A stretch of DNA of 47,686 bases from Methylobacter sp. (GTDB taxonomy: Bacteria; Pseudomonadota; Gammaproteobacteria; Methylococcales; Methylomonadaceae). The DNA lies in assembly GCA_025361585.1 (NCBI GenBank), contig JANYKK010000166.1, positions 1 through 47,686 on the forward strand, given 5' to 3'. The stretch's first letter is position 1. Each line of letters begins with the position of its first letter. Both the position numbers and the translations under genes were made by a program. The notes beneath the pieces were generated by a model. The model ran no database searches, was not told the origin of the DNA, and worked only from the letters and a program-made list of their open reading frames with translations. Below are positions 24,646 to 46,825 of this stretch, piece after piece.

Positions 24646-24810
24646 AGATGCTTCCGCTGGTCGTCATACTGGCATGGATGCCAGTATCCAGCCATATGGA
24701 TGTGAGTGCATGATTCGGCATGGTGTTTAAATTGAGCGCATGGTGCTTTGGAAAATTTCGGCAACTGCCGGAATAACGGAGTTTTTGCGTTGGTTGAAGC
24801 ATCTTGTTAA
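24646..24810. repeat. MITE-like repeat, copy A (after cysH)
   Basis: The ends are inverted (AGATGCTTC at 24646 and GAAGCATCT at 24796). The core CGTCATACTGGCATGGATG and neighbouring bases are nearly identical, in reverse orientation, to the copy at 39256-39456. On the plus strand it forms TACTGGC-ATGGAT-GCCAGTA (24667-24686) and CAT-ATGGAT-GTG (24693-24704). Confidence 0.8.
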
Positions 24811-28524: not shown

Positions 28525-28765
28525 ATTAGCGAGGAACTTCAGCTAGCAACGTCATGCCGGCAGGGACAGATATTTGCTCCTGCAATATCTGCATTCCCCA
28601 CATCCCTGTGGGTTATGCCGGTATCCAGTGCCATGGATGGTAACTTGGCAACGATGCAAGCGCTTGATCGAGGCGTGTTTGCCAATTAGCAGCTTCACAT
28701 CCATGTGGCTGGATTCTGGCATCCCTGCCAGAATGACGGTGTTCCGCAGATACTTGTGTATAACG
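28525..28765. repeat. MITE-like repeat, copy B (before ggt), with nested element
   Basis: It shares CGTCAT...GCCGGTATCCAG, CCATGGATGG and the block 28696-28739 with copies A and C; the ends are less well kept. A ~51-base double hairpin (about 28563-28613) sits in the centre of its left palindrome. Hexaloop hairpins lie at 28597-28612, 28696-28707 and 28714-28733 (minus) and 28629-28642 (plus). Confidence 0.75.
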
Positions 28766-28872
28766 ACGAGCGTAGCATATGGGGACGAAGTGAGCTTCAT
28801 CATACGCATCAATCCGACGCGTTCCCGCAAATGTGGTTTAATTACGCAAATTAAATTTGCCCAGAGAAAGAG

Positions 28873-30546
28873 ATGTTAAAGAAATATAGCGCGGCGCTGC
28901 TGTTCACGTTGGTTTTCGGGATCGCGCAGGTTTATGCCGATGGGACTAAGGCCGCGATTGCCAGCGCCCATCCTTTGGCGACGGCGGCCGGTTTTGAAAT
29001 CATGGACAAAGGCGGCAATGTGTTCGATGCGACCGTGGCGGTTAGCGCAACATTGGCGGTTGTCGAACCCTCGGGTTCCGGGCTGGGCGGTGGCGGTTAC
29101 TGGCTGCTGCACCGGGAGCAGGACGGTTTTGAAACGATGATCGACGGGCGCGAGAAAGCGCCGTTAGCGGCTCATCAGGCGATGTTTCTGGATAAGTCGG
29201 GCAAAGTGATCCCCCGATTATCGCTTGATGGCGCGTTGGCTGCGGCCATCCCCGGACTGCCTGCGGCGCTGGCGCATCTGTCGGAAAAATACGGACGCTT
29301 GCCGCTGGCGGAAAGCCTGCAACCTGCGATCAGGGCGGCGGAGACAGGTTTTGCCATTGGCGAAAAATACCGGAAGCTGCTTAAGTTCAGGGCTGAGCTG
29401 ATAAAAAAGCACCCATCGACGGCACAGATATTCCTAAGCGGGGGCAAGATCCCCGAGAATTACTCAATACTCCGGCAGCCGGATTTGGCCGATACCTTAA
29501 AGCAATTGGCAGGCTCAGGCCGGGATGGATTCTACGGCGGCGAGATAGCCGACAAGCTGGTGGCAGGCGTCAACAAGGCGGGCGGCATCTGGACCAAGCA
29601 GGATCTGGCGGATTATCAGGTTGTTGAGCGGGAGCCGGTAACAGGCAATTACCGCGGCATAAAAATCACCAGCGCCGCGCCGTCGTCCTCCGGCGGCATC
29701 GTATTGATCGAAGCGCTGAATATTCTGTCTGGCTATGATCTGAAACAGGCCGATGAACTGACCCGAAAGCATCTGATTACCGAAGCTCTGCGCCGTGCTT
29801 ATCACGACCGGGCTTTATATATGGGCGATTCGGATTTTATCGGGATGCCGGTTAAGCGGTTGTTGAATGAAGATTACGCGGCCGGATTGCGCAGCAGTCT
29901 GCGCCCGGACAAGGCGCTTCCCAGCGCGATGTTGTCGGGCGAAATCGGGCCGCAGCCCGAGGGCGTCAACACCACGCATTTTTCGATTATTGACGAACAG
30001 GGCAACCGGGTTGCCGCAACGCTAAGCGTCAATTTTCCGTTTGGTGCGGGCTTGGTGGCGGATGGAACCGGTGTGCTGCTGAACGATCAAATGGATGATT
30101 TTGCCAGCCTGCCGGGCGCGATGAACGGCTACGGGTTGGTAGGCGGCATCGCCAATGCAATCGCGCCGGGCAAGCGCATGTTGTCCAGCATGACGCCCAC
30201 TTTCCTTGACGACGGCAAAAACGTTGCGGTATTGGGAACGCCCGGCGGCAGCCGGATCACGTCGATGGTGCTGCTGGCCGCGCTGGATTTTGCCCAAGGC
30301 CACGGGCCGGATTCATGGGTGCAAGTGCCGCGTTTCTATCATCAGTTTATGCCCGATGTGTTGGAATATGAAAAAGGCGCGCTGACTGCGGATGAGCTTA
30401 CCGGTCTTGCCGCAATGGGACATCAGCTGAAAGAGGCGCGTTACAATTATGGCGATATGCAGGCGGTGCAGTGGGATAAAACCACCCATCAATTGTTTGC
30501 GGCCAGTGATCGGCGTGGCGAGGGCAGGGCTGTTGTTGGGCAATAG
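28873..30546 (+). CDS. ggt: Gamma-glutamyltransferase (glutathione hydrolase) precursor
   Basis: Ggt cleaves the gamma-glutamyl bond of glutathione in the periplasm and splits itself into two subunits. The 557-residue precursor has a signal peptide (KYSAALLFTLVFGIAQVYA), then AAIASAHPLATAAGFEIMDKGGN and SGLGGGGY. The self-cleavage site precedes Thr367 in VNTTHFSIIDEQGN, the catalytic Thr of the small subunit. PGKRMLSSMTPT and GTPGGSRI near the C-terminus bind the glutamyl group. The residues needed for maturation are present. The start follows AGAGAAAGAG closely. It is preceded by repeat copy B and divergent from the two-component genes. Confidence 0.95.
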   Translation: MLKKYSAALLFTLVFGIAQVYADGTKAAIASAHPLATAAGFEIMDKGGNVFDATVAVSATLAVVEPSGSGLGGGGYWLLHREQDGFETMIDGREKAPLAAHQAMFLDKSGKVIPRLSLDGALAAAIPGLPAALAHLSEKYGRLPLAESLQPAIRAAETGFAIGEKYRKLLKFRAELIKKHPSTAQIFLSGGKIPENYSILRQPDLADTLKQLAGSGRDGFYGGEIADKLVAGVNKAGGIWTKQDLADYQVVEREPVTGNYRGIKITSAAPSSSGGIVLIEALNILSGYDLKQADELTRKHLITEALRRAYHDRALYMGDSDFIGMPVKRLLNEDYAAGLRSSLRPDKALPSAMLSGEIGPQPEGVNTTHFSIIDEQGNRVAATLSVNFPFGAGLVADGTGVLLNDQMDDFASLPGAMNGYGLVGGIANAIAPGKRMLSSMTPTFLDDGKNVAVLGTPGGSRITSMVLLAALDFAQGHGPDSWVQVPRFYHQFMPDVLEYEKGALTADELTGLAAMGHQLKEARYNYGDMQAVQWDKTTHQLFAASDRRGEGRAVVGQ

Positions 30547-30656
30547 GTTACTTAGTCTGGGTGGGCGATTGAAGTCGCCCCCCCCCACAGCAGCAGTCAT
30601 TTTGTTTGATCGTTAAGATAATGGCAGCGATGTGCCATGTAGTAATTAGAAAAGTC

Positions 30657-30682
30657 GTAGGGGCGACCGGCAGGTCGCCCTT
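30657..30682. repeat. GTAGGGGCGACC palindromic repeat, intergenic copy
   Basis: Its sequence is the fmt copy with one change (GGCAGG for GGCCGG). It lies 40 bases before the phosphopantetheinyl transferase start. A related hairpin GGGCGA-N6-TCGCCC followed by a C9 run is just upstream (about 30564-30590). Confidence 0.8.
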
Positions 30683-30721
30683 GTGATGTAGGCCAAATGC
30701 CCAATCCAGTAGGATTATGAG

Positions 30722-31414
30722 TTGAATACCGACACTATCCAAATATGGCACGGCACGATTGCCGCCGAGGACGCCGATTACCCAAACTACTGGCGCGTTC
30801 TCGATGCCGACGAGCAAGCCCGTGCCGGAAAATTTAAAAACGATGTGCTGCGCAATCGCTACGTCGAAGCGCATGGACGATTAAGGAAAGTATTGGCGCG
30901 GATACTCAACGAACCGCCGGAAAAGATCAACATAAAAACCGCTGAACATGGCAAGCCCTATCTCGCCGATGTGCCTGAGCTGGCGTTCAATCTGTCCCAT
31001 TCCGCAAATGCCATGGTGATCGCCATAGGTCGAAACTGTCGGTTGGGTGTGGATATTGAGTTTTGTAAACCGAGAATCAGCTTTGCCGGGCTGGTTGACA
31101 AATGTTTTGCCGATGAAGAAATCGCCTATTGGAACAGGCTGCCTGAGGCACAACAAATACTTGAGTTTTATCGCTACTGGACGCGCAAAGAAGCCTTCGT
31201 TAAAGCCACAGGACACGGTATCAGTTTAGGCTTGAATCTTTGTGTTGTTAATCCTGAAAATCCGACTGAATTTTTAAGGGTTCCAGCTGAGTGCGGCCAA
31301 GCTTCAATCTGGCACGTACAGGATTTAGAGTTAGGGCAGGGCGTTTGCAGTGCAGTAGTGGCGGACAAGGATATCGTTGGGGTTAGTCTTATGGCTTTGG
31401 AATCATGGGCTTGA
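30722..31414 (+). CDS. Sfp-type 4'-phosphopantetheinyl transferase
   Basis: The enzyme moves phosphopantetheine from CoA to a serine of carrier proteins. The 230-residue size and the motifs FNLSHSANAMVIAIG, LGVDIE (metal Asp and Glu) and YWTRKEAFVKATGHGI (Glu and Lys of the active site) place it in the Sfp/HetI group, which serves polyketide, peptide or fatty-acid-like synthases. No such synthase is in the window, so its partner is elsewhere. The start is a TTG at 30722 with AGGAT about seven bases upstream. The earlier ATG at 30718 is followed at once by a stop. Confidence 0.92.
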   Translation: MNTDTIQIWHGTIAAEDADYPNYWRVLDADEQARAGKFKNDVLRNRYVEAHGRLRKVLARILNEPPEKINIKTAEHGKPYLADVPELAFNLSHSANAMVIAIGRNCRLGVDIEFCKPRISFAGLVDKCFADEEIAYWNRLPEAQQILEFYRYWTRKEAFVKATGHGISLGLNLCVVNPENPTEFLRVPAECGQASIWHVQDLELGQGVCSAVVADKDIVGVSLMALESWA

Positions 31415-31576
31415 AATATCTGGAATCTTTGTATTAGAGCAGGCAAACAGTTTTCTCGTTTAACCTGCCTCTAAATTGCGACGTGGTAAAACCACTTCAA
31501 TCCCTCATTGCGCCTTATGCCCTCTTTAATTCTGCAAAGAATGGGCTACTCCTGTTGTTAATTCAGCGAACAGGAA

Positions 31577-32815
31577 ATGAAGAAAGCCCATCGCAACAAT
31601 TCGCCATTGGCGCTGATGTTTCTCGATCTTGACGAATTCAAGGCTGTCAATGATACGCTGGGGCATGATATGGGCGATGTTTTGCCTAAGGAGGTTACGC
31701 AACGGATATGTGCTTGCGTGCGTGAAGCCGACACCGTGGCGCGTTTGGGAGGGGACGAGTTTACCGTTATATTGGCCGATCTGGACGAGCGGTACCAAAA
31801 CGTTGAACTGGTTGCCGAGGCTATTTTGCGCAAACTCGTCGAACCTTTCTCTTTGGCTGATAACGTTGTTCATATATCAGCCAGCATCGGCATTACCTTT
31901 TACCCCGAGGATGCCGTCACTTTTGACGAATTGCTGAAAAATGCCGATCAAGCGATGTATGCCGCTAAAGATCAAGGCCGTAACCGTTACCATTATTTCA
32001 CCCCTGTCATGCAGGAGGCTGTTCAGAAACGGATGCGGATCGCCAATGATTTGCGCGTGGCATTGGCCGACAACCAGTTCCAGTTGTATTATCAGCCTAT
32101 CGTGGAGCTGGCAACCGGCGCTATCCGTAAGGCGGAAGCGCTGATCCGCTGGCAGCACCCGGAATATGGCCTTATCAGCCCGGCGGCCTTTATTCCGATC
32201 GCCGAAGAAACCGGCATGATCGTCGAAATCGGCGACTGGGTATTTCGGACGGCAGTTAATCGGGTCGCGCACTGGCGTGCGGCGTATTGCGCCGATTTTC
32301 AAGTCAGCATCAATAAATCCCCCGTGCAATTTGCAGGCAGGGGCGTGTCGCATGACATCTGGCTGAACCAGCTCACTGAATTGGGGTTGCCTGGGGAGAG
32401 CGTCGTTATAGAAATTACCGAGGGTTTATTGCTGGACGCCAGCAACTCCACGAAAGACAAACTGTTGATTTTTCGCGATGCGGGCATACAAGTGGCCATT
32501 GATGATTTCGGTACCGGCTATTCGTGCCTGACTTATCTGCAAAAACTCGACATCGATTACCTCAAGATTGACCAGGCATTTGTTTTCAATTTGACGCCCG
32601 CTTCTAAAAACATGGCGCTATGCACGGCCATTATCGTTATGGCGCACGAACTCGGACTGAAAGTTATTGCAGAAGGGATAGAAACAAATGAGCAGTACGA
32701 ATTATTGGCCGCTGCAGGCTGCGATTATGGACAAGGATATTTTTACTCCAGGCCAGTAGCGACTGAAGAGTTTGAGGAACTGTTGAAAGGCGCCCATCCC
32801 AAGTTTGCCCTCTGA
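31577..32815 (+). CDS. GGDEF-EAL cyclic di-GMP protein, 5' truncated
   Basis: The GGDEF domain (MFLDLDEFKAVNDTLGHDMG; RLGGDEFTVIL) and a complete EAL phosphodiesterase domain follow one another. The EAL domain has its Glu in EALIRW, Asn in SINKSP, Glu in VIEITEG, IDDFGTGYS, Lys in YLKID, AEGIET and GQGYFYSRP. The protein begins only about ten residues before the first GGDEF strand, so the usual DxLTGLPNR segment and any sensor domain are missing. A stop codon stands in frame at 31559-31561. Upstream codons in another frame may be a decayed remnant. It is either a pseudogene or a trimmed EAL enzyme. Confidence 0.8.
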   Translation: MKKAHRNNSPLALMFLDLDEFKAVNDTLGHDMGDVLPKEVTQRICACVREADTVARLGGDEFTVILADLDERYQNVELVAEAILRKLVEPFSLADNVVHISASIGITFYPEDAVTFDELLKNADQAMYAAKDQGRNRYHYFTPVMQEAVQKRMRIANDLRVALADNQFQLYYQPIVELATGAIRKAEALIRWQHPEYGLISPAAFIPIAEETGMIVEIGDWVFRTAVNRVAHWRAAYCADFQVSINKSPVQFAGRGVSHDIWLNQLTELGLPGESVVIEITEGLLLDASNSTKDKLLIFRDAGIQVAIDDFGTGYSCLTYLQKLDIDYLKIDQAFVFNLTPASKNMALCTAIIVMAHELGLKVIAEGIETNEQYELLAAAGCDYGQGYFYSRPVATEEFEELLKGAHPKFAL

Positions 32816-32893
32816 TCTGTCAACATTGCCGCCCTCAATACCTGCTTGATATAGCGGTGTTGCCATGATGGCAGGCAATGCTTTCCCGCATTT

Positions 32894-32921
32894 GGAGGCG
32901 CTTGATGATTCAAGCGTCTCC
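32894..32921. terminator. Hairpin between convergent genes
   Basis: GGAGGCGCTTGA pairs with TCAAGCGTCTCC (one G-T) around TGAT. It could end transcripts from both sides, though no long T run follows. Confidence 0.55.
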
Positions 32922-32942
32922 ATCCACTTTTATCGGATAAGG

Positions 32943-34127
32943 TTATTCAAGCTCTTCCAACTGCACTCTGCGGTTGTTGGCGCGACCTGCTTCAGTATCA
33001 TTGGTGTCGATAGGTCGGGTTAAGCCGTAGCCTCGGGCAGTCAATGTTCCCTTTGCATGGGCCCGGCTTAAGTAGCCTTTGACGGCCTGTGCGCGGCGCT
33101 CGGATAATCTTTGGTTGTAAGCCGCCGTGCCGGTGCTGCTGGTGTGGCCTTGCACCTCAATACGTACGCCGGGATTGTGGTTGATGACCATAACGGCATT
33201 ATCGAGTTCTTCATAATAGACGGGCTTAATGTCGCTTTTATCGTTGTCGAATTTCACATCGACAATCCAGCAGCCGAATTGGTTAACGTGAGCGCCTTTT
33301 GGGGTGATTGGGCATTTATCGATGCAATTGTTGATGCCGTCGCCATCGTCATCTTGGGTTGAGCAATCGGCAACCGGCTTGCCGGGTTTTAAGAAAACGC
33401 TTTGCACGAATTTTGCCATGCTGTTGCTGGTGAAAATCTGTTCGGCAGTGACGCTAAAGCCGCAACCGGAAATGCCTGAGAGATTGTTTAATACGGTTTG
33501 GCCGGATCTTTCCTCATCATTACCTACCCAGACTGTATATACGCATAACCGGTCGCCATATTGTTTTTTAAGGGATAGCACGGAGGCGGCAGGATCGGAA
33601 TTTAGTTCATGGCCGTCGCTGAGTATCAATACGGCGATGTTGCCGGTCATGGTTGATAAGTCTTCGGAGCTAGCCTCAATACCGCTAACCATCGGCGAAC
33701 CGCCGCTTGCGCAGGTCAGGCTGTCCACGCCGCTACCGAAAGTTGATTTGGAGTAGGGGGTCGGCGCTTGGTTAAGCCGGGTGAAGCCCCAGTCCAGGCA
33801 GGGGCCGAAACCAAAGCTGCGGATGCTTGAAGTCAGCTTCAGGTCGGGGATGGTCAGATTGATCCGGTTCAGAATTTCTTTTTCAACGGCTAGCTTGGTA
33901 GCGGTGGGTTGGGCCGGGTAGCCTACGCCATGATAATGTTCCGCCATTGATGACGAGGAATCATTGAGTACAAAGAAATTATCTGTTTTTTGCACATATT
34001 GTCCTGAGGCAACCAAACCGGTTAGTTCATGAGGGTGAAAAGTCTCGAAAGTGCTTAAAGGTTGCGAGGCGCAACCTGATATAAGTACGCTTGTAATGGC
34101 TGTCGCGATGATAAGTGTTTTTTTCAT
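32943..34127 (-). CDS. OmpA-family lipoprotein with vWA-like domain
   Basis: The 394-residue protein has a lipoprotein signal (ITSVLISGC, lipid-bearing Cys19). A von Willebrand A-like domain follows (FFVLNDSSSSMAEHY as the metal-site strand; AVLILSDGHELNSDP), then a calcium-type thrombospondin-3-like repeat DDDGDGINNCIDKCP. The C-terminal OmpA domain binds peptidoglycan (VRIEVQGHTSSTGTAAYNQRLSERRAQAV, ending NNRRVQLEELE). It is thus an outer-membrane lipoprotein tied to the wall with a periplasmic binding domain. The DxSxS metal site is DSSSS here. GGGAGA six bases before the ATG supports the start. No operon partner. Confidence 0.9.
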   Translation of the reverse strand: MKKTLIIATAITSVLISGCASQPLSTFETFHPHELTGLVASGQYVQKTDNFFVLNDSSSSMAEHYHGVGYPAQPTATKLAVEKEILNRINLTIPDLKLTSSIRSFGFGPCLDWGFTRLNQAPTPYSKSTFGSGVDSLTCASGGSPMVSGIEASSEDLSTMTGNIAVLILSDGHELNSDPAASVLSLKKQYGDRLCVYTVWVGNDEERSGQTVLNNLSGISGCGFSVTAEQIFTSNSMAKFVQSVFLKPGKPVADCSTQDDDGDGINNCIDKCPITPKGAHVNQFGCWIVDVKFDNDKSDIKPVYYEELDNAVMVINHNPGVRIEVQGHTSSTGTAAYNQRLSERRAQAVKGYLSRAHAKGTLTARGYGLTRPIDTNDTEAGRANNRRVQLEELE

Positions 34128-34349
34128 GATGTTCTCCCGGTTATTCAGTTGGAATGCTGGATGGTTTCAGGATATAAGAAATAGGCTGTTTATATAACTA
34201 GTACAAACACTTATTGGAAAAACCAAGCCGCGATTGCAGATTAACTTTAGGATTGGGTGTGAAAAACGATGTTAAAATAGCTTTAAGGCGGCATAAAAAA
34301 TTGTCGCCAAGCAAATCTCGACAGAATCATACTAACGAAATACTATCAA

Positions 34350-35753
34350 ATGACTATAAAAACACGTTTTGCCCCGAGTCCAACCGGTTATCTGCATGTG
34401 GGCGGCGCCCGCACCGCTTTGTTTTCCTGGCTATATGCGCGCAAGCATGGCGGGAAGTTTATTTTACGGATCGAGGACACCGATCTTGAACGATCCACGC
34501 AGGAGTCGGTCGATGCGATTTTGGAAGGCATGACTTGGTTGGGGTTGGAATACGACGAAGGCCCGTTTTATCAAACCCACCATTTCGACCGCTATAAAGA
34601 AATTATCCAGCAGTTGCTCGACCAAGGCGACGCCTATTATTGCTATTGCAGCAAAGACGAGCTGGAGCAGTTGCGCACCGAGCAAATGGCGAATAAGGAA
34701 AAACCGCGCTATAACGGCAAATGCCGGGATTTGACTGGCGCGAAAGGCGACCGGGAAGCGGTGATCCGCTTTAAGAATCCCGTAGACGGCGCAGTCACCA
34801 TTCCCGATCTGATTAAGGGCGACATCGTGGTTGCCAATAAAGAACTGGACGATTTGATTATCGCCCGGGGCGACGGCACGCCGACCTATAATTTGACGGT
34901 GGTGGTTGACGATATGGATATGAAAGTCACCCATGTCATTCGCGGCGATGACCATATCAACAATACGCCGAGGCAGATGAACATTCTTAAAGCCTTGGGT
35001 GCGGAACTGCCTAAATACGCGCATCTGCCGATGATACTGGGGCCGGACGGCGCGAGGTTGTCTAAACGCCACGGTGCAGTCAGCGTGATGCAGTTTCGCG
35101 ATGACGGCTATTTGCCCGATGCCTTGCTGAATTATCTGGTGCGTCTGGGCTGGTCACATGGCGATCAGGAGATTTTTACGGTCGATGAAATGGTCGAGCA
35201 TTTTGACTTGGAAAATGTCAATGTGTCGGCGTCGGCGTTTAACACCGAAAAGCTGTTATGGCTGAATCACCAGTACATCATGAACAGTGACCCGGCGCAT
35301 GTGGCGCGCCATTTAAGCTGGCACATGGGCGAGCTGGGCATCGATCCTACCGAAGGCCCGAGTCTGGTCGAGATGGTCAAGGCGCAACGGGAACGCTGCA
35401 AGACGCTGGTTGAAATAGCCGCTGCCAGCGTTTATTTCTACAAGGATTTTGATGTGTACGATGAAAAGGCTGCTAAAAAGAATTTCACTCCCGGCTCGGA
35501 TGAAGTTTTGGCCAAGCTGCACGATGAATTTGCTGCGGTCAGCGAATGGAATGGCGAAGCCTTGCACCAGATTGTAGTGAATCTTGCTGAAACCCTGGAG
35601 CTGGGTTTGGGCAAGGTGGCTCAGCCGTTGCGTGTTGCTGTTTGCGGCTCGGCGGTTTCCCCTGCAATCGATATAACCTTGTCGTTGCTGGGCAAAGAAA
35701 AAACCTTAGCCAGGATTCAGCGTGCCATAAGCCATATAAAAAATTCAAATTAG
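34350..35753 (+). CDS. gltX: Glutamyl-tRNA synthetase
   Basis: GltX charges tRNA-Glu. The 467-residue class I enzyme has the HIGH-type motif in [18 protein letters not shown] and the KMSKS-type motif in ARLSKRHGA, with [10 protein letters not shown] and [13 protein letters not shown] between them and an anticodon-binding helical C-terminus. The zinc-site cysteines [11 protein letters not shown] are present. It is followed within 50 bases by tRNA-Ala and then two genes for its own substrate, tRNA-Glu, an arrangement that could coordinate their supply. Confidence 0.98.
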
Positions 35754-35755
35754 TC

Positions 35756-35784
35756 TTGGCCTCGATGGCTAATTGCTGTAGAAT
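35756..35784 (+). promoter_or_regulatory. Promoter of the tRNA cluster
   Basis: TTGGCC and TAGAAT are exactly 17 bases apart, starting right after the gltX stop and ending 18 bases before tRNA-Ala. Confidence 0.6.
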
Positions 35785-35802
35785 GCCGGTTCTCAGCTTA
35801 GA

Positions 35803-35878
<76 letters not shown>

Positions 35879-35899
35879 AAAGTTGATAAACCAGTTTTA

Positions 35900-35975
35900 G
35901 TCCCCATCGTCTAGTGGCCTAGGACACCGCCCTTTCACGGCGGTAACGGGGGTTCGAACCCCCCTGGGGACGCCA
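35900..35975 (+). tRNA. tRNA-Glu (anticodon TTC), first copy
   Basis: The 76-base tRNA has acceptor GTCCCCA/TGGGGAC, anticodon stem CCGCC/GGCGG with loop CTTTCAC (TTC) and an encoded CCA end. It is identical to the copy at 36053-36128, including 12 bases in front. Confidence 0.97.
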
Positions 35976-35986
35976 CTATACATAAG

Positions 35987-36010
35987 GCCTATGTCTATAG
36001 GCTTTTTTTA
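35987..36010 (+). terminator. Terminator after the first tRNA-Glu
   Basis: GCCTAT-GTCT-ATAGGC is followed by seven T. It would end or weaken transcription before the second tRNA-Glu copy. Confidence 0.75.
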
Positions 36011-36052
36011 TGACAGTTGATATTGTTGTGCAGGCTGACTAAACCAGTTTTA

Positions 36053-36128
36053 GTCCCCATCGTCTAGTGGCCTAGGACACCGCCCTTTCACGGCGGTAAC
36101 GGGGGTTCGAACCCCCCTGGGGACGCCA
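36053..36128 (+). tRNA. tRNA-Glu (anticodon TTC), second copy
   Basis: It is an exact duplicate of the preceding tRNA-Glu. The 12 bases before it (AAACCAGTTTTA, 36041-36052) also repeat those before the first copy, so a segment of about 88 bases was duplicated. Confidence 0.97.
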
Positions 36129-36135
36129 TTAATTG

Positions 36136-36168
36136 AAAGGGTTATCAGAGATGATAACCCTTTTTTTT
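36136..36168 (+). terminator. Terminator of the tRNA cluster
   Basis: The 11-base stem AAAGGGTTATC (36136-36146) with 36153-36163 has a 6-base loop and runs into a T tract. Confidence 0.9.
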
Positions 36169-36330
36169 GCCTGTCGATTTTGTTGTTAAGCGATTAGCAA
36201 GAAAGGGCGTGGAGAGTCAAGCTGGTTCGGTTTTGACTTTAGTGTCGCATATTACCGTTTTATCATCGATTGATACTCGGGCGAGTTCTGCATCAAATAA
36301 AGCGGAATAATAAAAGATTCTGCTGCTGGG

Positions 36331-37341: not shown

Positions 37342-37635
37342 TAAATGCTCTTTTAGGCGAGAATCGCTGATTATTCACAAATTGAATTTAGTTCAAAAGA
37401 GTGAAAAAGTAGCGCGGTGCTCAGTATCAATTTAATGCGGGTCAATTGTCGGGAAAAACGAGCATTCTAACTTAAGTTTATCAGGATAGTGAAATCAACT
37501 AATTCAATCAATAGGTGTCATTGCCTATCGGGTGCGCCCACTATTGAAATGAATTCCTTTCATCGCAAAGCCCTGGAGATTATTTTAGCGGTTATTTTGG
37601 GCTACAATGCGTAACCCGGTTTGAGAGCAGACATA

Positions 37636-39246: not shown

Positions 39247-39255
39247 ACAGTCCGC

Positions 39256-39456
39256 TTAGCAAGATGCCTGAGATAATGAGATAGCTCAAAAAAACACGTC
39301 ATTCTGGCATAGATGCCGGATCCGTTAGAGCGCGAAGCGAATCCAGAGCCATGGACGGTTGCAAATACCTCTTAGGCATCTCATGCATTCACATCCATGT
39401 GACTGGATACTGGCATCCATGCCAGTATGACGGTGCTGGCTGAGGCATCTTGATAA
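39256..39456. repeat. MITE-like repeat, copy C (after the phosphatase gene)
   Basis: It is 201 bases long with terminal inverted repeats: TTAGCAAGATGCCTGAG at 39256-39272 against CTGAGGCATCTTGATAA at 39440-39456 (15 of 17 match). Internal hairpins are TACTGGC-ATCCAT-GCCAGTA (39408-39427), CAC-ATCCAT-GTG (39390-39401) and AGCC-ATGGAC-GGTT (39347-39360). No transposase is encoded. Confidence 0.85.
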
Positions 39457-39538
39457 TCTGGTTAAATGATCATGTCATCAAATCTTAACGTGGCTAACTC
39501 AGAATACCCCTTGAATCATTTGACAAGGGTTAGTTGCC

Positions 39539-39661
39539 ATGAACAAATTCATACTGAATAATCTCAACGTAATGACCGCATCATTGGCTATGTCTGTTTT
39601 GGCTTTAGTTGTAGCCTGGGGTGTTGAGCTACTGGTTAAGGAATTGTTTCGCTTGGGGTAG
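39539..39661 (+). CDS. 40-residue single-span membrane peptide
   Basis: The ATG at 39539 has AAGGG about nine bases upstream. The 40 codons give a polar start (MNKFILNNLN), a clean hydrophobic span (TASLAMSVLALVVAWGVELL) and a charged end (VKELFRLG). This is a plausible small inner-membrane protein. No family is recognised. The stop runs straight into a hairpin, as in a complete small transcription unit. Confidence 0.5.
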   Translation: MNKFILNNLNVMTASLAMSVLALVVAWGVELLVKELFRLG

Positions 39662-39680
39662 GGTGCGCATCGCGCACCCT
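39660..39680. repeat. AGGGTGCGC-ATC-GCGCACCCT hairpin
   Basis: This perfect 9-base stem with a 3-base loop overlaps the stop codon of the small peptide gene. It has the form of a widespread GTGCGC-type repeat and may serve as a terminator. Confidence 0.7.
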
Positions 39681-39810
39681 TTACGAATGCCAACGACTGG
39701 GCGTAGAAAAAGAGTGCGGCGCCCCTACTGAACTCAATAGTTCAAGCCGGGTACGGACAGCGTACTCTATGACCATGGCATTATTTCAACCGGCTTAAAA
39801 CCGGCAACAA

Positions 39811-40764
39811 CTACAACCACCCCTTCCGCTTAAAAAACCAATAAGGCGCAATTCCCGACAGCAGCATTAAGCCCAGCGCACTGGGATAACCCAGCTGCAA
39901 ATTGAGTTCCGGCATGTGCTGGAAATTCATGCCGTAAATGCTGGCGACCAGGGTAGGGGGCAGGAACACTACGGCGGCAATGGAAAATATTTTTATAATC
40001 TTATTTTGGGCAATGTTGATAAAGCCTTGGGTCGAGTCCATCAGGAAGTTGATTTTATCGAACAGGAATGTGGTATGCGACATCAAGGTATCCACGTCGC
40101 GCATGATCTCCCGTGCCGTTTCCTGCAACTCGGGATGGTCGCGCAAATGCCGTTGCAGAAAGGATATGGAGCGTTGCGTGTCCATCAGGCATAGCCGAAC
40201 CTTACCGTTGCTGTCTTCCAGTTTGGCCAGTTGATCGATGGCATTTTCAAGGTCGGAGTCAATTTCTTCCAGTACCAGATAGCTGACGTCTTCCAGTTTG
40301 CGATGAATGTCTTCCAGCGCATCGGCGAGGTTTTCCACTTTTTGCTCGAAGATAAGCACTAACAATTCCTGCGGCGAATGCGCCGCTACTTGCCCATGCC
40401 GGGCGCGCATACGCAGCAGGCGAAAATCGGCCAACGCACCTTCGCGCAGGGTGATTAACCGGTCGTTTTGCAAGATAAAGGCGACGGTTGCAGTGCTGTG
40501 CCGTCCTTCGCTTTGAGCAAGAAACAAGGAGCGCACATGGACGCCGGTGTTGTCGGTAAAGTAACGCGCGGAGGACTCGATTTCTTCTACGTCATCCGAT
40601 TCGGGCAGCGTGGTGCGCAGGAATGCTTGCAGCTGGGCGCGTTCATTATCGCTGGGATCGTGGGCGTCTATCCAGGCGGCTTGGGCGACCGCTTGCTTGA
40701 GCTGATCTTCAGGCGGTGTTTGTTCTTTGAGCCGACCTTTGTCGAAATTGAATAGTCGTAACAT
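39811..40764 (-). CDS. corA: CorA family divalent-cation transporter
   Basis: CorA forms a pentameric Mg2+ channel in the inner membrane. The 317-residue protein has the long cytoplasmic domain with coiled helices (LADALEDIHRKLEDVSYLVLEEID), then two C-terminal membrane segments. The selectivity motif YGMNF follows the first one (IFSIAAVVFLPPTLVASIYGMNF), and the basic end FFKRKGWL is typical. Co, Ni or Zn transport cannot be excluded. sixA lies 33 bases upstream on the same strand, so the two probably form an operon. Confidence 0.95.
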   Translation of the reverse strand: MLRLFNFDKGRLKEQTPPEDQLKQAVAQAAWIDAHDPSDNERAQLQAFLRTTLPESDDVEEIESSARYFTDNTGVHVRSLFLAQSEGRHSTATVAFILQNDRLITLREGALADFRLLRMRARHGQVAAHSPQELLVLIFEQKVENLADALEDIHRKLEDVSYLVLEEIDSDLENAIDQLAKLEDSNGKVRLCLMDTQRSISFLQRHLRDHPELQETAREIMRDVDTLMSHTTFLFDKINFLMDSTQGFINIAQNKIIKIFSIAAVVFLPPTLVASIYGMNFQHMPELNLQLGYPSALGLMLLSGIAPYWFFKRKGWL

Positions 40765-40797
40765 TAGGGAATTCCCGTTTTTTATGCATTTATTTAT

Positions 40798-41307
40798 TTA
40801 TTCAGGCAGGCTATCCGGGCGAATCAGCGTGACCAGTTTGGCGCTGCCTTCGGCCAGCTCTGTCCAGTCGCCATCAAAGGTGAGGTGGGCCAAAGCGGCG
40901 GTAGGCAGGCATTTTCCGTTGGCCGATAACGGAATCGTATGGGGGGTTAATTTTAACAGCAAGTCTTCCAAACCGGGGTTGTGGCCGACCAACAGCACGC
41001 GGCGTTGATGACCAACGGTTGTTAATAGGGCAAGCAAGGTCTGGGCGGTTGCTTCATAAATACGCGGGTCGCAGACAATAGCCGATTCGTCTATATCCAG
41101 TTGCCTGCAAACCCGCCGTGCAGTTTCCAGGGTGCGTGTTGCCGGAGAGCTGAGTATGGTGTCGGGGATCAAGCGCTGCTCATATAACCAACGTCCTATC
41201 CGTTTGGCGGCGCGGCGTCCGCGTTTTTTTAATGGACGGGAAAAGTCATCCATCTCAACCGACCAATCCGACTTGGCATGACGTAATAATAAAAGTTCGT
41301 GGGTCAT
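40798..41307 (-). CDS. sixA: Phosphohistidine phosphatase SixA
   Basis: SixA is a small histidine-phosphatase-superfamily enzyme that removes phosphate from phosphohistidine of signalling proteins. The 169 residues start LLLLRHAKSDWS, with the catalytic His in RHAKS. They continue with SSPATRTLETARRV and VLLVGHNPGLEDLL, where the second active-site His lies. It is preceded by a gap of about 250 bases and is probably cotranscribed with corA. Confidence 0.9.
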   Translation of the reverse strand: MTHELLLLRHAKSDWSVEMDDFSRPLKKRGRRAAKRIGRWLYEQRLIPDTILSSPATRTLETARRVCRQLDIDESAIVCDPRIYEATAQTLLALLTTVGHQRRVLLVGHNPGLEDLLLKLTPHTIPLSANGKCLPTAALAHLTFDGDWTELAEGSAKLVTLIRPDSLPE

Positions 41308-41560
41308 AAAATAGTTTTGTCAATCAGGGTGATGTCGGACATATATAAGCCTGCAATACTATACCAGCTTATCGTTACAAACTTATTACTCTAAAGTAAA
41401 AAAATAGCTGAAAGTTAGCCAGTTTGAGTCATACGGTATTTTAGGGCTGGGCTTGATCGGTGGTACTACTTATTGATTGAAGGGGGTGACTTCTCTATGC
41501 TACAGATGGTTATGCAATATCAACAGGGTTTTAAGTTAACTAATAACAATGAGGTGAGTC

Positions 41561-41827
41561 ATGTCTGTAAAAGAAGATTTTGAAAATTTGTTGGATAAGT
41601 TGCAAGTAGAGCGCGATGAAATTAATTTAAAAATGCATCTGGCTTCGATGGAAGCTAAGCAGGAATTTGAGGACGCCGAAAAACAATGGCACCGTTTAAA
41701 AATCAAAGCCGCTGAAATAGCGGATGAGTCGGTGGATACCTCCGAGGACTTTATTGCCAAGGCCAAGATAGTCGGTGAAGAACTTAAAGATGCTTACTAC
41801 CGCATTGGCAAACGCTTGGCCGATTAA
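41561..41827 (+). CDS. Small coiled-coil protein
   Basis: These 88 residues are almost wholly helical and highly charged (KEDFENLLDKLQVERDEINL, EFEDAEKQWHRLKIKAAEIA), with heptad spacing over most of the length and no Cys. GAGGTG shortly before the ATG is a strong ribosome site. Similar small helical proteins occur in related bacteria without known function. It lies 74 bases before the VTT-reductase on the same strand and could be cotranscribed. Confidence 0.75.
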   Translation: MSVKEDFENLLDKLQVERDEINLKMHLASMEAKQEFEDAEKQWHRLKIKAAEIADESVDTSEDFIAKAKIVGEELKDAYYRIGKRLAD

Positions 41828-41901
41828 GTTTTTACGAGGGTAATAATCAAGGCTATGGAGAATTCCTGTTAATATGTCCTAAAATCGGCAAGGAGAATAG
41901 C

Positions 41902-44112
41902 ATGGGTTTTTCACGTCAGACTATCCGGCCTGACGCCCGTCGGGTTAATGCAAATCTGTTTCAGACAGATTTGTCGCGTTGGGCGCTACTGGCTACTATC
42001 GCCGCCTTGATTGCGGCTTTTTTTATCTTTGATCTGCAACAGTATTTAACGCTGGAAACACTCAAGGCGCAGCAGGCGGCTATTGATATTTATCGCAGCA
42101 ATCACCCCCTTTTGGCGGTTGCAATCTATGCGTTGATTTATATAGCGGTGACTGCTTTGTCATTGCCGGGCGCGACAATTTTGACCCTGGCCGGTGGTGC
42201 TGTGTTCGGTTTGTTTTGGGGGGTGCTGATCGTATCCTTTGCCTCTACGATTGGCGCAACGCTGGCTTTTTTGTCGGCGCGTTTTTTGTTTCGCAATGCG
42301 GTGGAGTCGCGTTTCGGCGACCGCCTGACTGTCATCAATAAAGGCATGGATCGGGACGGCGCGCTGTACCTTTTTACTTTGAGATTGGTGCCGGTTTTTC
42401 CGTTCTTCGTGATTAATCTGGTGATGGGTTTAACCAGCCTGAAGACGCAGACGTTCTATTGGGTCAGCCAGATTGGCATGTTGGCGGGCACCGTGGTTTA
42501 TGTGAATGCAGGAACTCAGCTGGGCAAGCTGGAGTCCTTGTCGGGTATTTTGTCTCCCGGCTTGATCGGCTCTTTTGCTTTGCTGGGAATTTTTCCGCTG
42601 CTGGCTAATAAAGTCGTCGAAGCCATCAAGGCGAACAAGGTCTATGCACAATGGAGTAAGCCGCCGCGCTTTGATAGCAACATCGTGGTGATCGGTGCGG
42701 GCTCAGGCGGTTTGGTTACCGCGTACATCGCCGCCGCCGTCAAAGCCAAAGTCACTTTGATTGAAAAGCACAAAATGGGCGGCGATTGCCTGAACACCGG
42801 CTGCGTGCCATCCAAAGCCTTAATCCGTTCCGCCAAGTTGCTGGTACAGATGCGCCGGTGTGCCGATTTCGGCATCAAGAAAGTCGACACCAAGGTGGAA
42901 TTTGCCAAGGTGATGAAGCGGGTGCAATCGGTTATTAAAACCGTCGAGCCTCATGATTCCGTGCAGCGGTACACAGACCTTGGCGTGGAGGTTGTCGAGG
43001 GTGATGCCCGGATTATTTCACCCTGGGAAGTGCAGGTGAAAACGGATGGCGAATCCCGGATCATCACTACGCGCACCATCGTTATCGCCGCCGGAGCGCG
43101 GCCATTCGTCCCGCCGATTTCCGGCATAGAGGACATCGATTATCTGACTTCCGACACGGTGTGGGATTTGCGCGAATTGCCCAAGCGGCTGGTCGTGCTC
43201 GGCGGCGGGCCTATCGGCTGCGAACTGGCGCAAAGCTTTGCCCGGTTAGGCAGCGAGGTTACCCAGGTCGAAATGTTGTCTCGATTGTTGATTCGGGAAG
43301 ATGCTGAAGCCTCAGAGGCCGTGATGGCGAAGTTTCGCTTGGAAGGCGTTAATGTATTGGTCGGTCATACTGCCAAAGGTTTTATTGTCGAAAACGGCGA
43401 GAAAATTTTGCTTGCCGAGTATGACGGTAAGGAGCAGCGCATTCCTTTCGATCAGCTATTAGTGGCGATAGGCCGGGTTGCCAATATTCAGGGTTACGGC
43501 CTTGAACAGTTGGGCGTTGAAACTTCAGCTAACCGCACTATTGAAATCAATGAATTTCAGCAGACCAATTACCCGAACATTTTTGCCTGTGGCGACGTAT
43601 CCGGCCCGTTCCAGTTTACCCATGTCGCAGCTCATCAGGCTTGGTATGCGGCGGTGAACGCGCTATTTGGCAGCGTTATAAAATTTCGCACCGATTATTC
43701 GACAATTCCCTGGGCGACCTTTACCGACCCTGAAGTTGCACGGGTCGGCCTGAATGAGCAGGATGCTTTAGCCAAAGGTATTGCCTATGAAGTCAGTACC
43801 TATCCTATTGATGACCTTGATCGAGCGATAGCCGACGGCGTAGCGCACGGTTTCGTCAAAGTTTTAACCGCGCCGGGAAAAGATAGGATACTCGGCGTAA
43901 CCATCGTCGGCGAACAGGCCGGGGAATTGATCGCCGAATTTGTGCTGGCGATGAAATACAATATCGGCCTGAACAAGTTGTTGGGTACCATCCATATTTA
44001 TCCGACCCTATCGGAAGCCAACAAATATGCGGCCGGAGTGTGGAAGCGTAACCATGCGCCGAAAGGCCTGTTGAGGTGTGTTGCCAAGTACCATGATTGG
44101 CGCAGAGGCTAA
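41902..44112 (+). CDS. Fusion of a VTT membrane domain and a mercuric-reductase-like flavoprotein
   Basis: The 736-residue protein has two parts. Residues 28-235 are a VTT/DedA-like membrane domain (ALSLPGATILTLAGGAVFG; RLVPVFPFFVINLVMG). Residues 255-736 are a pyridine-nucleotide disulfide oxidoreductase: FAD motif VIGAGSGGL, redox pair Cys296/Cys301 in GGDCLNTGCVPSK, NAD motif VLGGGPIGCELAQ and dimer motif TIHIYPTLSE. It lacks a mercury-binding N-terminal domain and the C-terminal Cys pair of MerA, so its substrate is open. AGGAGA six bases upstream fixes the ATG. Residues 11-25 (DARRVNANLFQTDLS) are encoded by a 44-base repeat. Confidence 0.93.
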   Translation: MGFSRQTIRPDARRVNANLFQTDLSRWALLATIAALIAAFFIFDLQQYLTLETLKAQQAAIDIYRSNHPLLAVAIYALIYIAVTALSLPGATILTLAGGAVFGLFWGVLIVSFASTIGATLAFLSARFLFRNAVESRFGDRLTVINKGMDRDGALYLFTLRLVPVFPFFVINLVMGLTSLKTQTFYWVSQIGMLAGTVVYVNAGTQLGKLESLSGILSPGLIGSFALLGIFPLLANKVVEAIKANKVYAQWSKPPRFDSNIVVIGAGSGGLVTAYIAAAVKAKVTLIEKHKMGGDCLNTGCVPSKALIRSAKLLVQMRRCADFGIKKVDTKVEFAKVMKRVQSVIKTVEPHDSVQRYTDLGVEVVEGDARIISPWEVQVKTDGESRIITTRTIVIAAGARPFVPPISGIEDIDYLTSDTVWDLRELPKRLVVLGGGPIGCELAQSFARLGSEVTQVEMLSRLLIREDAEASEAVMAKFRLEGVNVLVGHTAKGFIVENGEKILLAEYDGKEQRIPFDQLLVAIGRVANIQGYGLEQLGVETSANRTIEINEFQQTNYPNIFACGDVSGPFQFTHVAAHQAWYAAVNALFGSVIKFRTDYSTIPWATFTDPEVARVGLNEQDALAKGIAYEVSTYPIDDLDRAIADGVAHGFVKVLTAPGKDRILGVTIVGEQAGELIAEFVLAMKYNIGLNKLLGTIHIYPTLSEANKYAAGVWKRNHAPKGLLRCVAKYHDWRRG
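41932..41975. repeat. 44-base double-hairpin repeat inside the VTT-reductase gene
   Basis: It matches 22180-22223 at 40 of 44 positions. It contributes 15 residues in frame between the start and the first membrane segment. Confidence 0.85.
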
Positions 44113-44262
44113 ATATATCTTACGGTTTTCAAAAGCCTGATATTAATCAAGGCTACTTTTGGCTATAATCTGGGGTAACTTTTAAACCCGCGCAGTGCAA
44201 CGCAAATAAAACGTAGTTTTGTTCAGCATCAGGGTCAGGTTCCAGTTAACAGGAGTAACCAT

Positions 44263-44946
44263 TTGAACCCACAGAACAAGATTTTATTCGCAGGCGATCC
44301 GCACGGCGATTTTAAGCCGCTGATAGCGGCGGTGCTTCAATATAAACCTGAAGCCGTCGTGCTGCTTGGCGATTATGATCTGGATATGCCCCTGGAAGCC
44401 TGCTTGCAGGAAATTGTCGGCTTGACCCAAATCTGGTGGATTGCCGGAAATCATGATTTTGAAACGCCCAGCAAACATAAGCATTTGTTTGATTCGGCCT
44501 TGGCCGATAAGGGCTTACACCTAAAGGTTACTGAAATTGCGGGACTCAGGGTTGCCGGTTTAGGCGGTATTTTTTTGGGCCGGGTTTGGTACCCGCCGCA
44601 AAAACCAAAATGGCGGGACAAGCAGCATTATCTGCATAATCAGCCTGCCAACCTCAGGCATTCGGCTTTGTCGTTAAAATACAAGGCGGCGATTTGGCAT
44701 GACGAGTTCGAGGCGTTAAAGGCGCTGAAAGCGGATATTCTGGTGACGCATGAAGCACCGGGATCGCACCGGCACGGCTTTGATGTGATTGGCGAACTGG
44801 CTGCCGCGATGGGGGTAAAAAATATTTTCCACGGCCATTTGCATGAAAATTATGCCGCTATTGTTAAACACAATATCAGGGTGGTCGGCGTGGCGGACAG
44901 GGAAGTAGTGGATTTGGTGGGGAATACGTTAAGTTCTATAAATTAA
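44263..44946 (+). CDS. Calcineurin-like metallophosphoesterase
   Basis: This 227-residue cytoplasmic enzyme has the full two-metal signature: FAGDPHGDF (DxH), LLGDYDL (GD), IAGNHDFE (GNHD), LVTHEAPG and FHGHLHE (GHxH). Such enzymes split phosphodiesters or phosphomonoesters; the substrate is unknown. The TTG start at 44263 follows AGGAG by seven bases, and no ATG is suitable. It is monocistronic, and a composite repeat begins right after the stop. Confidence 0.9.
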   Translation: MNPQNKILFAGDPHGDFKPLIAAVLQYKPEAVVLLGDYDLDMPLEACLQEIVGLTQIWWIAGNHDFETPSKHKHLFDSALADKGLHLKVTEIAGLRVAGLGGIFLGRVWYPPQKPKWRDKQHYLHNQPANLRHSALSLKYKAAIWHDEFEALKALKADILVTHEAPGSHRHGFDVIGELAAAMGVKNIFHGHLHENYAAIVKHNIRVVGVADREVVDLVGNTLSSIN

Positions 44947-44949
44947 TAC

Positions 44950-45063
44950 AGTAGGGGCGATCCGGCAGGTCGCCCTTGTAAATCGTATGTTGTAAAAGGA
45001 CGGCCTCGGCAACAGCTCCCTGCGCTGCCCTATCTCCTGCATCCGTGCAGGATCGTCCCTACT
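44950..45063. repeat. Composite repeat: GTAGGGGCGA element holding a nested double hairpin
   Basis: The outer arms AGTAGGGGCGATCC (44950-44963) and GGATCGTCCCTACT (45050-45063) match at 13 of 14. Inside are the third GTAGGGGCGA palindrome (44951-44977) and a ~50-base double hairpin (45007-45056) related to 46769-46815. It lies in the gap between convergent genes, 5 bases from the ybiT stop. Confidence 0.8.
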
Positions 45064-45067
45064 AGCC

Positions 45068-46654
45068 TTACGCTTGGCTACTCAAATAATCCTCATAATT
45101 ACCGTTAAAATCGACAATCCCGTTCGGGGTCAGTTCGATAATCCGAGTCGCCAGCGACGACACAAATTCCCGGTCATGGCTGACGAATATCAAGGTGCCT
45201 GGATAGTTTTCCAGCGCGGTATTCAATGACTCAATCGACTCCATGTCCAAATGGTTGGTCGGTTCATCCAGCACCATGATGTTGTTCTTTTGCAGGATCA
45301 GCTTGCCGAACAGCATGCGGCCTTGCTCCCCGCCGGAGATGACTTTAACTGATTTGTTGATGTCGTCGGCGCTGAACAATAACCGCCCCAAAGTGCCGCG
45401 GATGGTTTGGTCGTCATCCGTTTCCTTGCGCCATTGCCCCATCCACTCGATCAGGGTCATGTTTTCGGCGAAGTCTTCGGCATGATCCTGGGCATAGTAG
45501 CCTACCTCCGAGTTTTCCGACCATTTGACCACGCCGGTATCCGGCTTTAAATCGCCGACCAGGGTGCGCAGCAGGGTGGACTTACCGATACCGTTAGGGC
45601 CCAAGACTGCGACGCGCTCTCCGACGGCGATCATCAGGTTCAGGTCTTTAAACAATGGTTGTTCGCTGTAGCCTTTGCTCAGTCCTTCGACTTCCAGCGC
45701 CAAGCGGTGTAATTTCTTGGTTTGGTCGAAGCGGATAAACGGGTTAACCCGGCTTGAGGGTTTAACCTCATCCAGCTTGATTTTATCCAGCTGTTTGGCG
45801 CGGGAGGTGGCCTGTTTTGCTTTAGACGCGTTCGCCGAGAAACGGCTGACGAAAGTTTGCAATTCGGCGATCTGGGCTTTTTTCTTGGCGTTTCCGGCCA
45901 GCAGGCGTTCACGCACTTCGGTTACCGCGATCATGTAGTCGTCGTAGTTGCCGGGATAAACGCGCAGCTCGCCGTAATCCATATCGGCCATGTGGGTGCA
46001 GAGGCTGTTCAAGAAGTGACGGTCATGCGAGATGATAATCATCGTGCAATTGCGCTGGTTCAGGATGTCTTCAAGCCAGCGGATGGTGTTGATGTCCAGG
46101 TTGTTGGTCGGCTCATCGAGCAGCATGATGTCGGGATTGGCGAACAAGGCCTGTGCGAGCAATACCCGCAGTTTCCAGCCGGGAGCCACGGCGCTCATCG
46201 GGCCGTTATGCTGTTCCAGCGGAATGTCCAGACCCAGTAATAACTCGCCAGCCCTGGCTTCTGCGGTATAGCCGTTGAATTCGGCGAACACAGATTCAAG
46301 CTCGGCGGCGTGCATGTAATCGTCTTCGGTAGCTTCCATGTTGGCGTAAATTGCGTCGCGCTCGGACATGGCCGCCCACATCTCGGCGTGGCCCATCAGC
46401 ACCACGTCCAGCACGCGCTGGTCTTCGTAGGCGAATTGATCCTGGCGCAAGTTACCCAGGCGCTCGTTAGGGCTGATGCTGACGTTGCCCGCTGACGGTT
46501 CCAGGTCGCCGCTCAATATTTTCATGAAGGTCGATTTGCCGCAGCCGTTTGCGCCGATCAGGCCGTAACGGTTGCCGTCGCCGAATTTGACCGAGACGTT
46601 TTCAAACAGGGGCTTTGCCCCGAACTGCATGGTGATGTTAGCTGTAGAGATCAA
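45068..46654 (-). CDS. ybiT: ABC-F family ATPase YbiT
   Basis: This is a soluble ABC-F protein with two ATPase domains and no membrane part. Relatives bind the ribosomal E site and ease stalled translation. The 528 residues follow E. coli YbiT closely: start [20 protein letters not shown], Walker A GANGCGKS and GPNGIGKS, Walker [11 protein letters not shown] and [10 protein letters not shown], and second signature ISGGEQGRM. The first signature is degenerate ([11 protein letters not shown]) exactly as in YbiT. The linker [20 protein letters not shown] is the P-site tRNA interaction motif. yaeQ is upstream on the same strand, separated by a repeat. Confidence 0.96.
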
Positions 46655-46707
46655 GTTTTTGTTCCGAAGATTGAAAGTAAAAGACTGTTTTGTTGTAAAG
46701 AGATTAA

Positions 46708-46825
46708 TTCACCACGAAGGCACGAAGAGCACGAAGTTTTAATGATATTCTTCGTGTTCTTCGTGCCTCGGCAATTGCTCCTGCATTGCTCTACCTCCTG
46801 CATCCATGCAGTCGTTCGTGGTGAA
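46708..46825. repeat. CACCACGAAGGCACGAAG inverted repeat interrupted by a 47-base element
   Basis: The left arm (46708-46736) pairs with 46750-46768 plus 46816-46825, one mismatch in 29. The right arm is split cleanly by 47 bases (46769-46815), which form a double hairpin like those at 28563 and 45007. Confidence 0.85.

Follow-up and report, generated by a model that had tools for sequence, protein, structure and literature searches.

A very small double-hairpin repeat with nearly fixed loops and covarying stems, dispersed in Methylobacter and other Gammaproteobacteria

The SDR elements of Nostoc punctiforme, reportedly described by Elhai et al. in 2008, are said to be 21-27 nucleotides (nt) long and confined to a subgroup of the cyanobacteria. 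REPs and REPINs, which are associated with the TnpA_REP (RAYT) enzymes, are short palindromic repeats located mostly outside genes, and the non-autonomous derivatives of the IS200/IS605 insertion sequences (PATE-like) have left and right hairpins and insert without duplication beside a short motif. The mitochondrial double-hairpin elements of Allomyces and the fission yeasts consist of two adjacent hairpins and are described as potentially mobile and near-identical across species (PMC10085805). Here we describe a double-hairpin element from a stretch of 47,686 nt of Methylobacter sp. DNA (assembly GCA_025361585.1, contig JANYKK010000166.1), below called the window, in which an earlier examination of the letters alone, the sequence-only reading, had placed three copies at about 28563-28613, 45007-45056 and 46769-46815. 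Loci and genomes used for comparison are cited by our own L and G numbers.

All three sites are confirmed as copies of a dispersed superfamily of double-hairpin elements, 47-49 nt in length. A covariance model built on 59 rows, which include the three window copies, recovers every copy, at 28567-28615 (A), 45006-45054 (B) and 46768-46815 (C), with E-values from 3e-17 to 8e-11. Eight further window matches were obtained up to E 10, three with scores of 15.7-17.1 bits and five with E-values of 0.29-6.5. The former three, located at 24666-24702 (-), 39386-39428 (+) and 28679-28734 (+) with E-values of 0.002-0.006, consist of a CACATCCATRTG-type hairpin adjoining a CGTC-REP-like palindrome and are possibly related to hairpin 2 alone. 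Folded as single-stranded DNA, the forward strands of copies A, B and C are more stable than nearly all dinucleotide shuffles (z -5.7, -3.2 and -3.0), with 0, 0 and 1 of 200 shuffles folding as well; the corresponding numbers for the complement are 0, 1 and 3 of 200.

The element is composed of two hairpins joined by a short linker, the left one with the loop GC-TCCT-GC and the right one with the loop CA-TCCN-TG. In loop 1, two G-C pairs enclose TCCT, and the stem of hairpin 1 has one unpaired base on its 5' side. Subfamilies are distinguished by their stems: type I reads TCGGCAAY.GCTCCTGCRTTGC-linker-CTGCATCCNTGCAG-TCG; type II has the start of type I with a different right hairpin and often ends in TTA; type III reads CAGA....GCTCCTGC....TCTG, followed by the right hairpin and an end such as TTA or TCA; and type IV is divergent, its first stem being unpaired in the register used. 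Copies B and C belong to one subfamily (type I) and copy A to another.

The stems differ while their pairing is kept, as the sequence-only reading had claimed. The alignment holds 56 of the 87 signature-distinct copies together with the window copies, and leaves out type IV-like rows, irregular or nested rows and some rows that pair well. In its 59 distinct rows, 96.6% of 708 cells (one pair in one row) are paired, compared to 20-43%, and at most 43.1%, when the partners are slid out of register. Both sides are changed in 177 of the 708 cells, with a covariation score of 0.614 versus at most 0.140 for the slid versions. Changes on both sides are seen at 8 of the 12 pairs, the other 4 being invariant, and several pair types occur per position, for example CG in 23, AU in 22 and GC in 10 rows at one pair. 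Two of five covariation measures were not clearly above shuffles, which did as well in 191 of 500 cases for the number of both-side-changed pairs and in 10 of 500 for the pair types. Since relatedness among copies inflates shuffle tests, the covariation argument rests on the slid control and on the several pair types. Most stem changes keep the pairing, and among all 172 distinct copies found by pattern, 748 of 860 hairpin 1 cells (87%) and 495 of 516 hairpin 2 cells (96%) pair, versus fractions of at most 0.49 and 0.59 for the slid versions.

Because the search patterns require the loops, the invariance of the loops and of the four pairs in pattern-found copies is given by construction. Loop conservation was assessed in a search with the loop left free and anchored on known stems and linkers, covering 80 evenly spaced 20-kb pieces from four genomes (1.6 Mb). 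The loop GCTCCTGC was then found in 30 of 35 first hairpins of types I and II, and among second hairpins CATCCNTG was present in 24 of 31 for type I and in 25 of 27 for type III, with variants such as GCTCCATGC and CGTCCATG also present. Counted in both registers, the first loops of type III included GCTCCTGC in 20 cases and the variants GCTCCATGC and ACTCCTGC in 3 each. The loops are nearly fixed, and the stems vary and covary. The earlier description of the first loop is amended to the TCCT within two G-C pairs given above. A separate recurrent repeat with the same loop motifs, composed of GGGGCTCCTGCCCC and CGGCATCCCTGCCG hairpins, was observed in M. tundripaludum (G006; e.g., L334, 17429-17478).

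The three window copies are not the only ones. Their own genome (3.28 Mb, 81% complete) contains 37 exact pattern matches, 32 to the core pattern and 5 with a CCC variant, and none to the reversed pattern; the matches L021, L023 and L034 lie at contig ends with common flanks and may be a single copy, and L042 probably does not belong to the family. The type I pattern was found in at least 117 stretches from gammaproteobacterial records, including Methylobacter, Methylovulum, Methylomonas, Shewanella, Pseudoalteromonas, Zhongshania, Endozoicomonas, Paraglaciecola, Dokdonella and other Lysobacteraceae. Twelve carrier genomes have 2 to 95 matches each and none to the reversed pattern. Among 369 sampled gammaproteobacterial genomes, 96 have a match and 34 have three or more, compared to one match in each of 2 genomes for the reversed pattern, where single matches may be chance or coding and the repeat counted in one genome (G304) is perhaps unrelated. 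The highest count, 213 matches, comes from one relative of the same family. No match was found in 50,697 phage records; among viral contigs the type I pattern occurs in 3 and the type III pattern in none, and matches were seen in 3 of 72,556 plasmids, one of them full-length, and in 2 of 5426 E. coli genomes, both partial. In the chromosome of E. coli ZF34 (L197, 4001-4037), the right 37 nt of type I, with a 97% match, lie inside pglX, annotated as a BREX methyltransferase gene, and the same pglX-internal match is present in two plasmids (Moellerella and Salmonella). This is perhaps the remnant of an old insertion in a coding region.

The ends of the element and its usual target can be defined from the flanks. 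Among 103 type I copies whose left flanks all differ, C precedes TCGG in 86 and T follows GTCG in 88, which corresponds to a C^T junction (the caret marks the point of insertion); the exceptions include tandem copies. A C also precedes 31 of the 35 copies assigned to type II, and the 36 assigned to type III have G at -2 in 28 cases and G or A at -1 in 30, a few type I copies being misfiled as II or III in this tally. Among the loci orthologous to the site of copy C, L341 is empty (TAGAAC^ACGGATG), L344 is filled exactly there by a shortened element and L348 has an uninterrupted CACGAAG palindrome where that of the window is interrupted; a similar palindrome is found at the B site in L345. Host palindromes are thus also found without the element, and across 30 orthologous loci, the window included, the element is present at site B in 1 and at site C in 3. 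Target duplication is absent in the orthologous empty/filled pair (L341/L344) and in nested copies with known hosts. The suggestion of a small inserting element with a conserved fold is borne out by the dispersed copies, the clean insertion and the covarying stems, and mobility of the element is well supported. In Shewanella sp. KJ10-1 (G001; L058, L109), type I copies also form head-to-tail arrays with a 47-nt period and up to 5 units listed, often at one and the same host sequence, GTAGGCATAGTTGCTC^TACGTCAAAAT. These arrays fit the C^T target, since an existing copy offers a C^T at its own left junction, C^TCGG. Six tandem type IV copies with a 46-nt period were observed at G007:C1:2262498-2262759.

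A specific kind of nesting was identified at GCTCC^TGC, with 15 cases in 9 genomes among guests with GCTCC on the left, a search that says nothing on nesting frequency elsewhere and in which cases within one genome may share a single origin. In most of these a sibling hairpin 1 can be recognised as the host, and its sequence continues without loss or duplication, and in 8 cases a type III element lies within loop 1 or loop 2 of a type I copy on the opposite strand. The sequence-only reading had also held that the element is always nested in other palindromes. Different inverted repeats do surround all three window copies; however, only 14 of the 103 type I copies have flanks that pair around the junction with a stem score of at least 6, where the rate is 3.0% for 2060 random sites from these loci and 2.1% when flank pairs are permuted. 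This test counts only palindromes whose centre is no more than 8 nt away, and an off-centre host, as in the case of copy C, would escape it. Palindromic surroundings are enriched, not the rule, and the target is better described as C^T and as the loops of sibling elements than as palindromes in general. It is possible, and we propose it tentatively, that the loops serve both as recognition signal and as landing pad for siblings, so that the families parasitise each other at GCTCC^TGC, and that they form a hairpin-only superfamily of 47-49 nt, among the smallest in bacteria, common to gammaproteobacterial genera and moved by an enzyme that is possibly of a non-Y1 type.

Open reading frames are clearly avoided, as far as crude calls show: 58 of 133 copies lie inside frames of at least 90 amino acids, compared to 4551 of 5580 random sites. 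By the same calls, 27 of 75 intergenic copies are arranged as -|E>|- and 19 as +|E>|+ (E> being the element), 17 lie between convergent and 12 between divergent genes. There is no preferred orientation relative to the neighbouring genes, and on this ground a terminator or a fixed element of untranslated regions was rejected as an explanation.

Within the window, all three copies and their hosts are given on the forward strand. Copy A is a type III element of 49 nt (28567..28615) that starts with CAGA and ends with TTA, with hairpin 1 at 28567-28591 and hairpin 2 at 28597-28612. Its flanks, GGGA^ and ^TGCCGG, are those of the sister copies L002-L006, which also share its host, a CGTC-tagged REP-like palindrome at 28554..28624 (arms 28554-28562/28616-28624) interrupted in the loop; this host was assigned by eye to the CGTC repeat class, as set out in PMC3733652. 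Copy B (45006..45050) is a type I element of about 45 nt that starts with TCGG and has a weak hairpin 1 and a degenerate right end, with GCAGGATCG in place of GCAGTCG. It interrupts the right one of two GTAG-tagged REP-like palindromes in opposite orientation at 44951..45064 (arms 44950-44967/45046-45063), the right arm overlapping the last bases of the element, and uninterrupted REPs of this type are found in L048 and to the left of the copy in L034. Copy C (46768..46814), a type I element of 47 nt, starts with TCGG and consists of hairpin 1, linker, hairpin 2 and the tail TCG, its initial T being equally assignable to the host. That host is a palindromic repeat, CACCACGAAGG..., at 46708..46825 (arms 46708-46718/46815-46825), interrupted in the right arm at TGCC^TTCGTGG, and an orthologous copy of the element is present in L340.

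The gene between copies B and C (45068..46654, reverse strand), which served as anchor for the orthologous sites, encodes an ATP-binding-cassette protein of 528 amino acids that we take to be of the ABC-F type. At the orthologous intergenic sites (46708-46825 in the window; L340, L345, L348), different repeats are present in other species, for example ACGGATGACACGGAT, which gives the impression that repeat families take each other's place there. An Rfam scan of the window gave only tRNAs at gathering scores and none at the three element sites; near copy C there were 18 sub-threshold matches, nearly all to microRNA families, on the host palindrome.

Among bacterial systems, the SDR elements appear to be the nearest analogue. 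They are likewise said to be very small, with a fold supported by compensatory changes, to be nested in each other and in minitransposons and to have no known autonomous partner. The double-hairpin element differs from them in its length of 47-49 nt, its two hairpins with nearly fixed loops, the C^T junction in two subfamilies and its occurrence in Gammaproteobacteria, cyanobacteria not having been searched as a group. It resembles REPs and REPINs in being short, palindromic and, by crude gene calls, seemingly located for the most part outside genes; GTAG by the hairpin is seen in the complement of types I and II, and CT at the junction in most type I copies. It differs from them in that one strand holds two hairpins that are unlike each other, where REPINs have inverted REP copies. 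In addition, none of 96 Y1 loci shows a RAYT gene flanked by it, and type III lacks the GTAG. With the IS200/IS605 derivatives it has in common the left and right hairpins, the lack of target duplication and insertion next to a short motif, but it has no parental insertion sequence that we could find, and 47-49 nt leave little room for guide tetranucleotides at both ends. The GTAG- and CGTC-tagged palindromic repeats, which host copies B and A, are tagged single hairpins without the fixed-loop two-hairpin unit; some REP dimers inside palindromes are mentioned in PMC3733652. The mitochondrial elements are GC-rich and organellar, and the likeness is one of form, with no shared sequence claimed. 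As it stands apart from REPINs by RAYT linkage, from IS200 derivatives by the parental insertion sequence and from SDRs by size and host, we regard it as a further form among the very small palindromic mobile repeats. None of six element strings of 17-19 nt is in print in the open-licence literature, and no description of the family was found among the listed titles and abstract starts of that literature on repeats, REPs, double-hairpin elements, Shewanella and methanotrophs.

Our favoured explanation, to which we give a probability of roughly 0.45, is that this hairpin element is non-autonomous and is mobilised in trans, with an HUH/Y1 enzyme acting on single-stranded DNA as the probable agent; we did not find this enzyme. 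An enzyme of the TnpA_REP or IS200-like type would recognise the folded hairpins on single-stranded DNA, cut at C^T and join the cut strand to a further C^T that lies exposed, in many cases within a hairpin loop. The anatomy is like that of HUH/Y1 substrates, with two terminal hairpins, an unpaired base in the stem, C^T junctions and no duplication, and in types I and II the linker (CTAC) reads GTAG on the complement, where it lies 5' of hairpin 1. According to PMC8266576, TnpA_REP enzymes cleave at CT, in one case at CA as well, and the TnpA_REP of E. coli requires GTAG and a stem bulge.

Several observations weigh against transfer by a Y1 enzyme. Type III has no GTAG and is located after G-rich flanks instead of C^T, and a stem bulge is not diagnostic since Group 3 REPs are perfect palindromes according to the same source (PMC8266576). 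None of the 96 Y1 loci, some of which are the same gene counted twice, is flanked on both sides by the element, and 3 have any match in their flanks, one probably by chance. A gene-bearing version with the hairpins far apart was not found in 1.09 Mb of loci, where separated ends are nested insertions, point variants or partial copies, and a search, not exhaustive, of the 96 Y1 loci and the 1.09 Mb gave no parental insertion sequence with the same ends and a Y1 transposase. No Y1 match was obtained in 2 of the 12 carriers (G004, with 2 copies, and G012, with 10) or in 3 of 24 further picked carriers, namely G302 (7 matches, 93% complete), G111 (6 matches, 73% complete) and G304 (7 matches, perhaps of a different repeat). 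A clade of TnpA_REP proteins with a helix-turn-helix (HTH) tail is mildly enriched among carriers, being present in 24 of 34 genomes with at least three matches versus 156 of 335 others (p 0.011), and in 10 of 34 with a stricter cut (p 0.043), kinship being ignored in both tests; the Methylobacter genome itself (G000) lacks the clade. The HTH-tailed protein was rejected as cognate enzyme, since the enrichment is mild and several carriers do without it. From its length and C-terminal sequence it would belong to subclass 2.1, which has no REP nearby according to PMC6006769. In NCBIfam, REP_Tyr_transpos scored above the cut-off for one of two HTH-tailed proteins and below it for the other.

Insertion on the lagging strand is expected to give a replication-strand bias, and such a bias is inconsistent between genomes, which also counts against the Y1 route. 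In G261, 15 copies on the plus and 31 on the minus strand lie in arcs of positive GC skew and 32 and 7 in negative arcs (p 8e-6; first 100 of 213 positions). The sign is opposite in G007 (14/5 and 3/11, p 0.005), there is no bias in G001 (12/8 and 18/13, p 1), and the GC skew of G006 is too patchy for the test. Between 1.6 and 3.0 Mb of the G261 chromosome, all 22 collapsed copies have one orientation.

The fold may also belong to an RNA. A folded transcript could be reverse-spliced or reverse-transcribed into target DNA, as has reportedly been proposed for the cyanobacterial SDR elements, and the tiny size, the compensatory stem changes, the absence of duplication and the self-nesting all parallel the description of these; that some carriers have no Y1 match points the same way. 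We consider such spread via an RNA copy unlikely, since its C^T junction and the GTAG next to hairpin 1 are reminiscent of Y1 substrates and no Rfam family reached its gathering score at the sites. An RNA could matter in another manner. GGA in a hairpin loop is a feature of CsrA/RsmA sites, and the loops of the complement, AGGA and NGGA, place a GGA in both hairpins, with TACAGGGATGTA in type IV being like the CsrA consensus. The copies might then be kept for an RNA or protein-binding function, as putative CsrA/RsmA sites or sponges when transcribed, and nearly fixed loops on covarying stems would agree with this. We judge it improbable, as the copies have no preferred orientation to the neighbouring genes, the base preceding GGA is often a non-purine, and clean insertions and nesting require a mobility mechanism anyway.

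Finally, there may be no dedicated mechanism at all, the element being passively amplified inside REPs or MITE-like repeats by recombination or slippage at hairpins. In the Methylobacter genome, the copies of A type have a common CGTC-REP/MITE-like host and may have been spread together with it, and slippage could make tandem arrays grow. Identical ends and the C^T junction in unrelated hosts, the presence in distant genera and the hits on sibling loops at one and the same bond in 9 genomes nevertheless make passive amplification quite unlikely.

How DNA of less than 50 nt moves in bacteria is poorly understood. With the ends, the usual target (C^T), the empty and filled sites and the covarying fold now defined, mobility of the double-hairpin element is directly testable in cultured strains, and the carriers without a Y1 match offer a means to separate the candidate enzymes.

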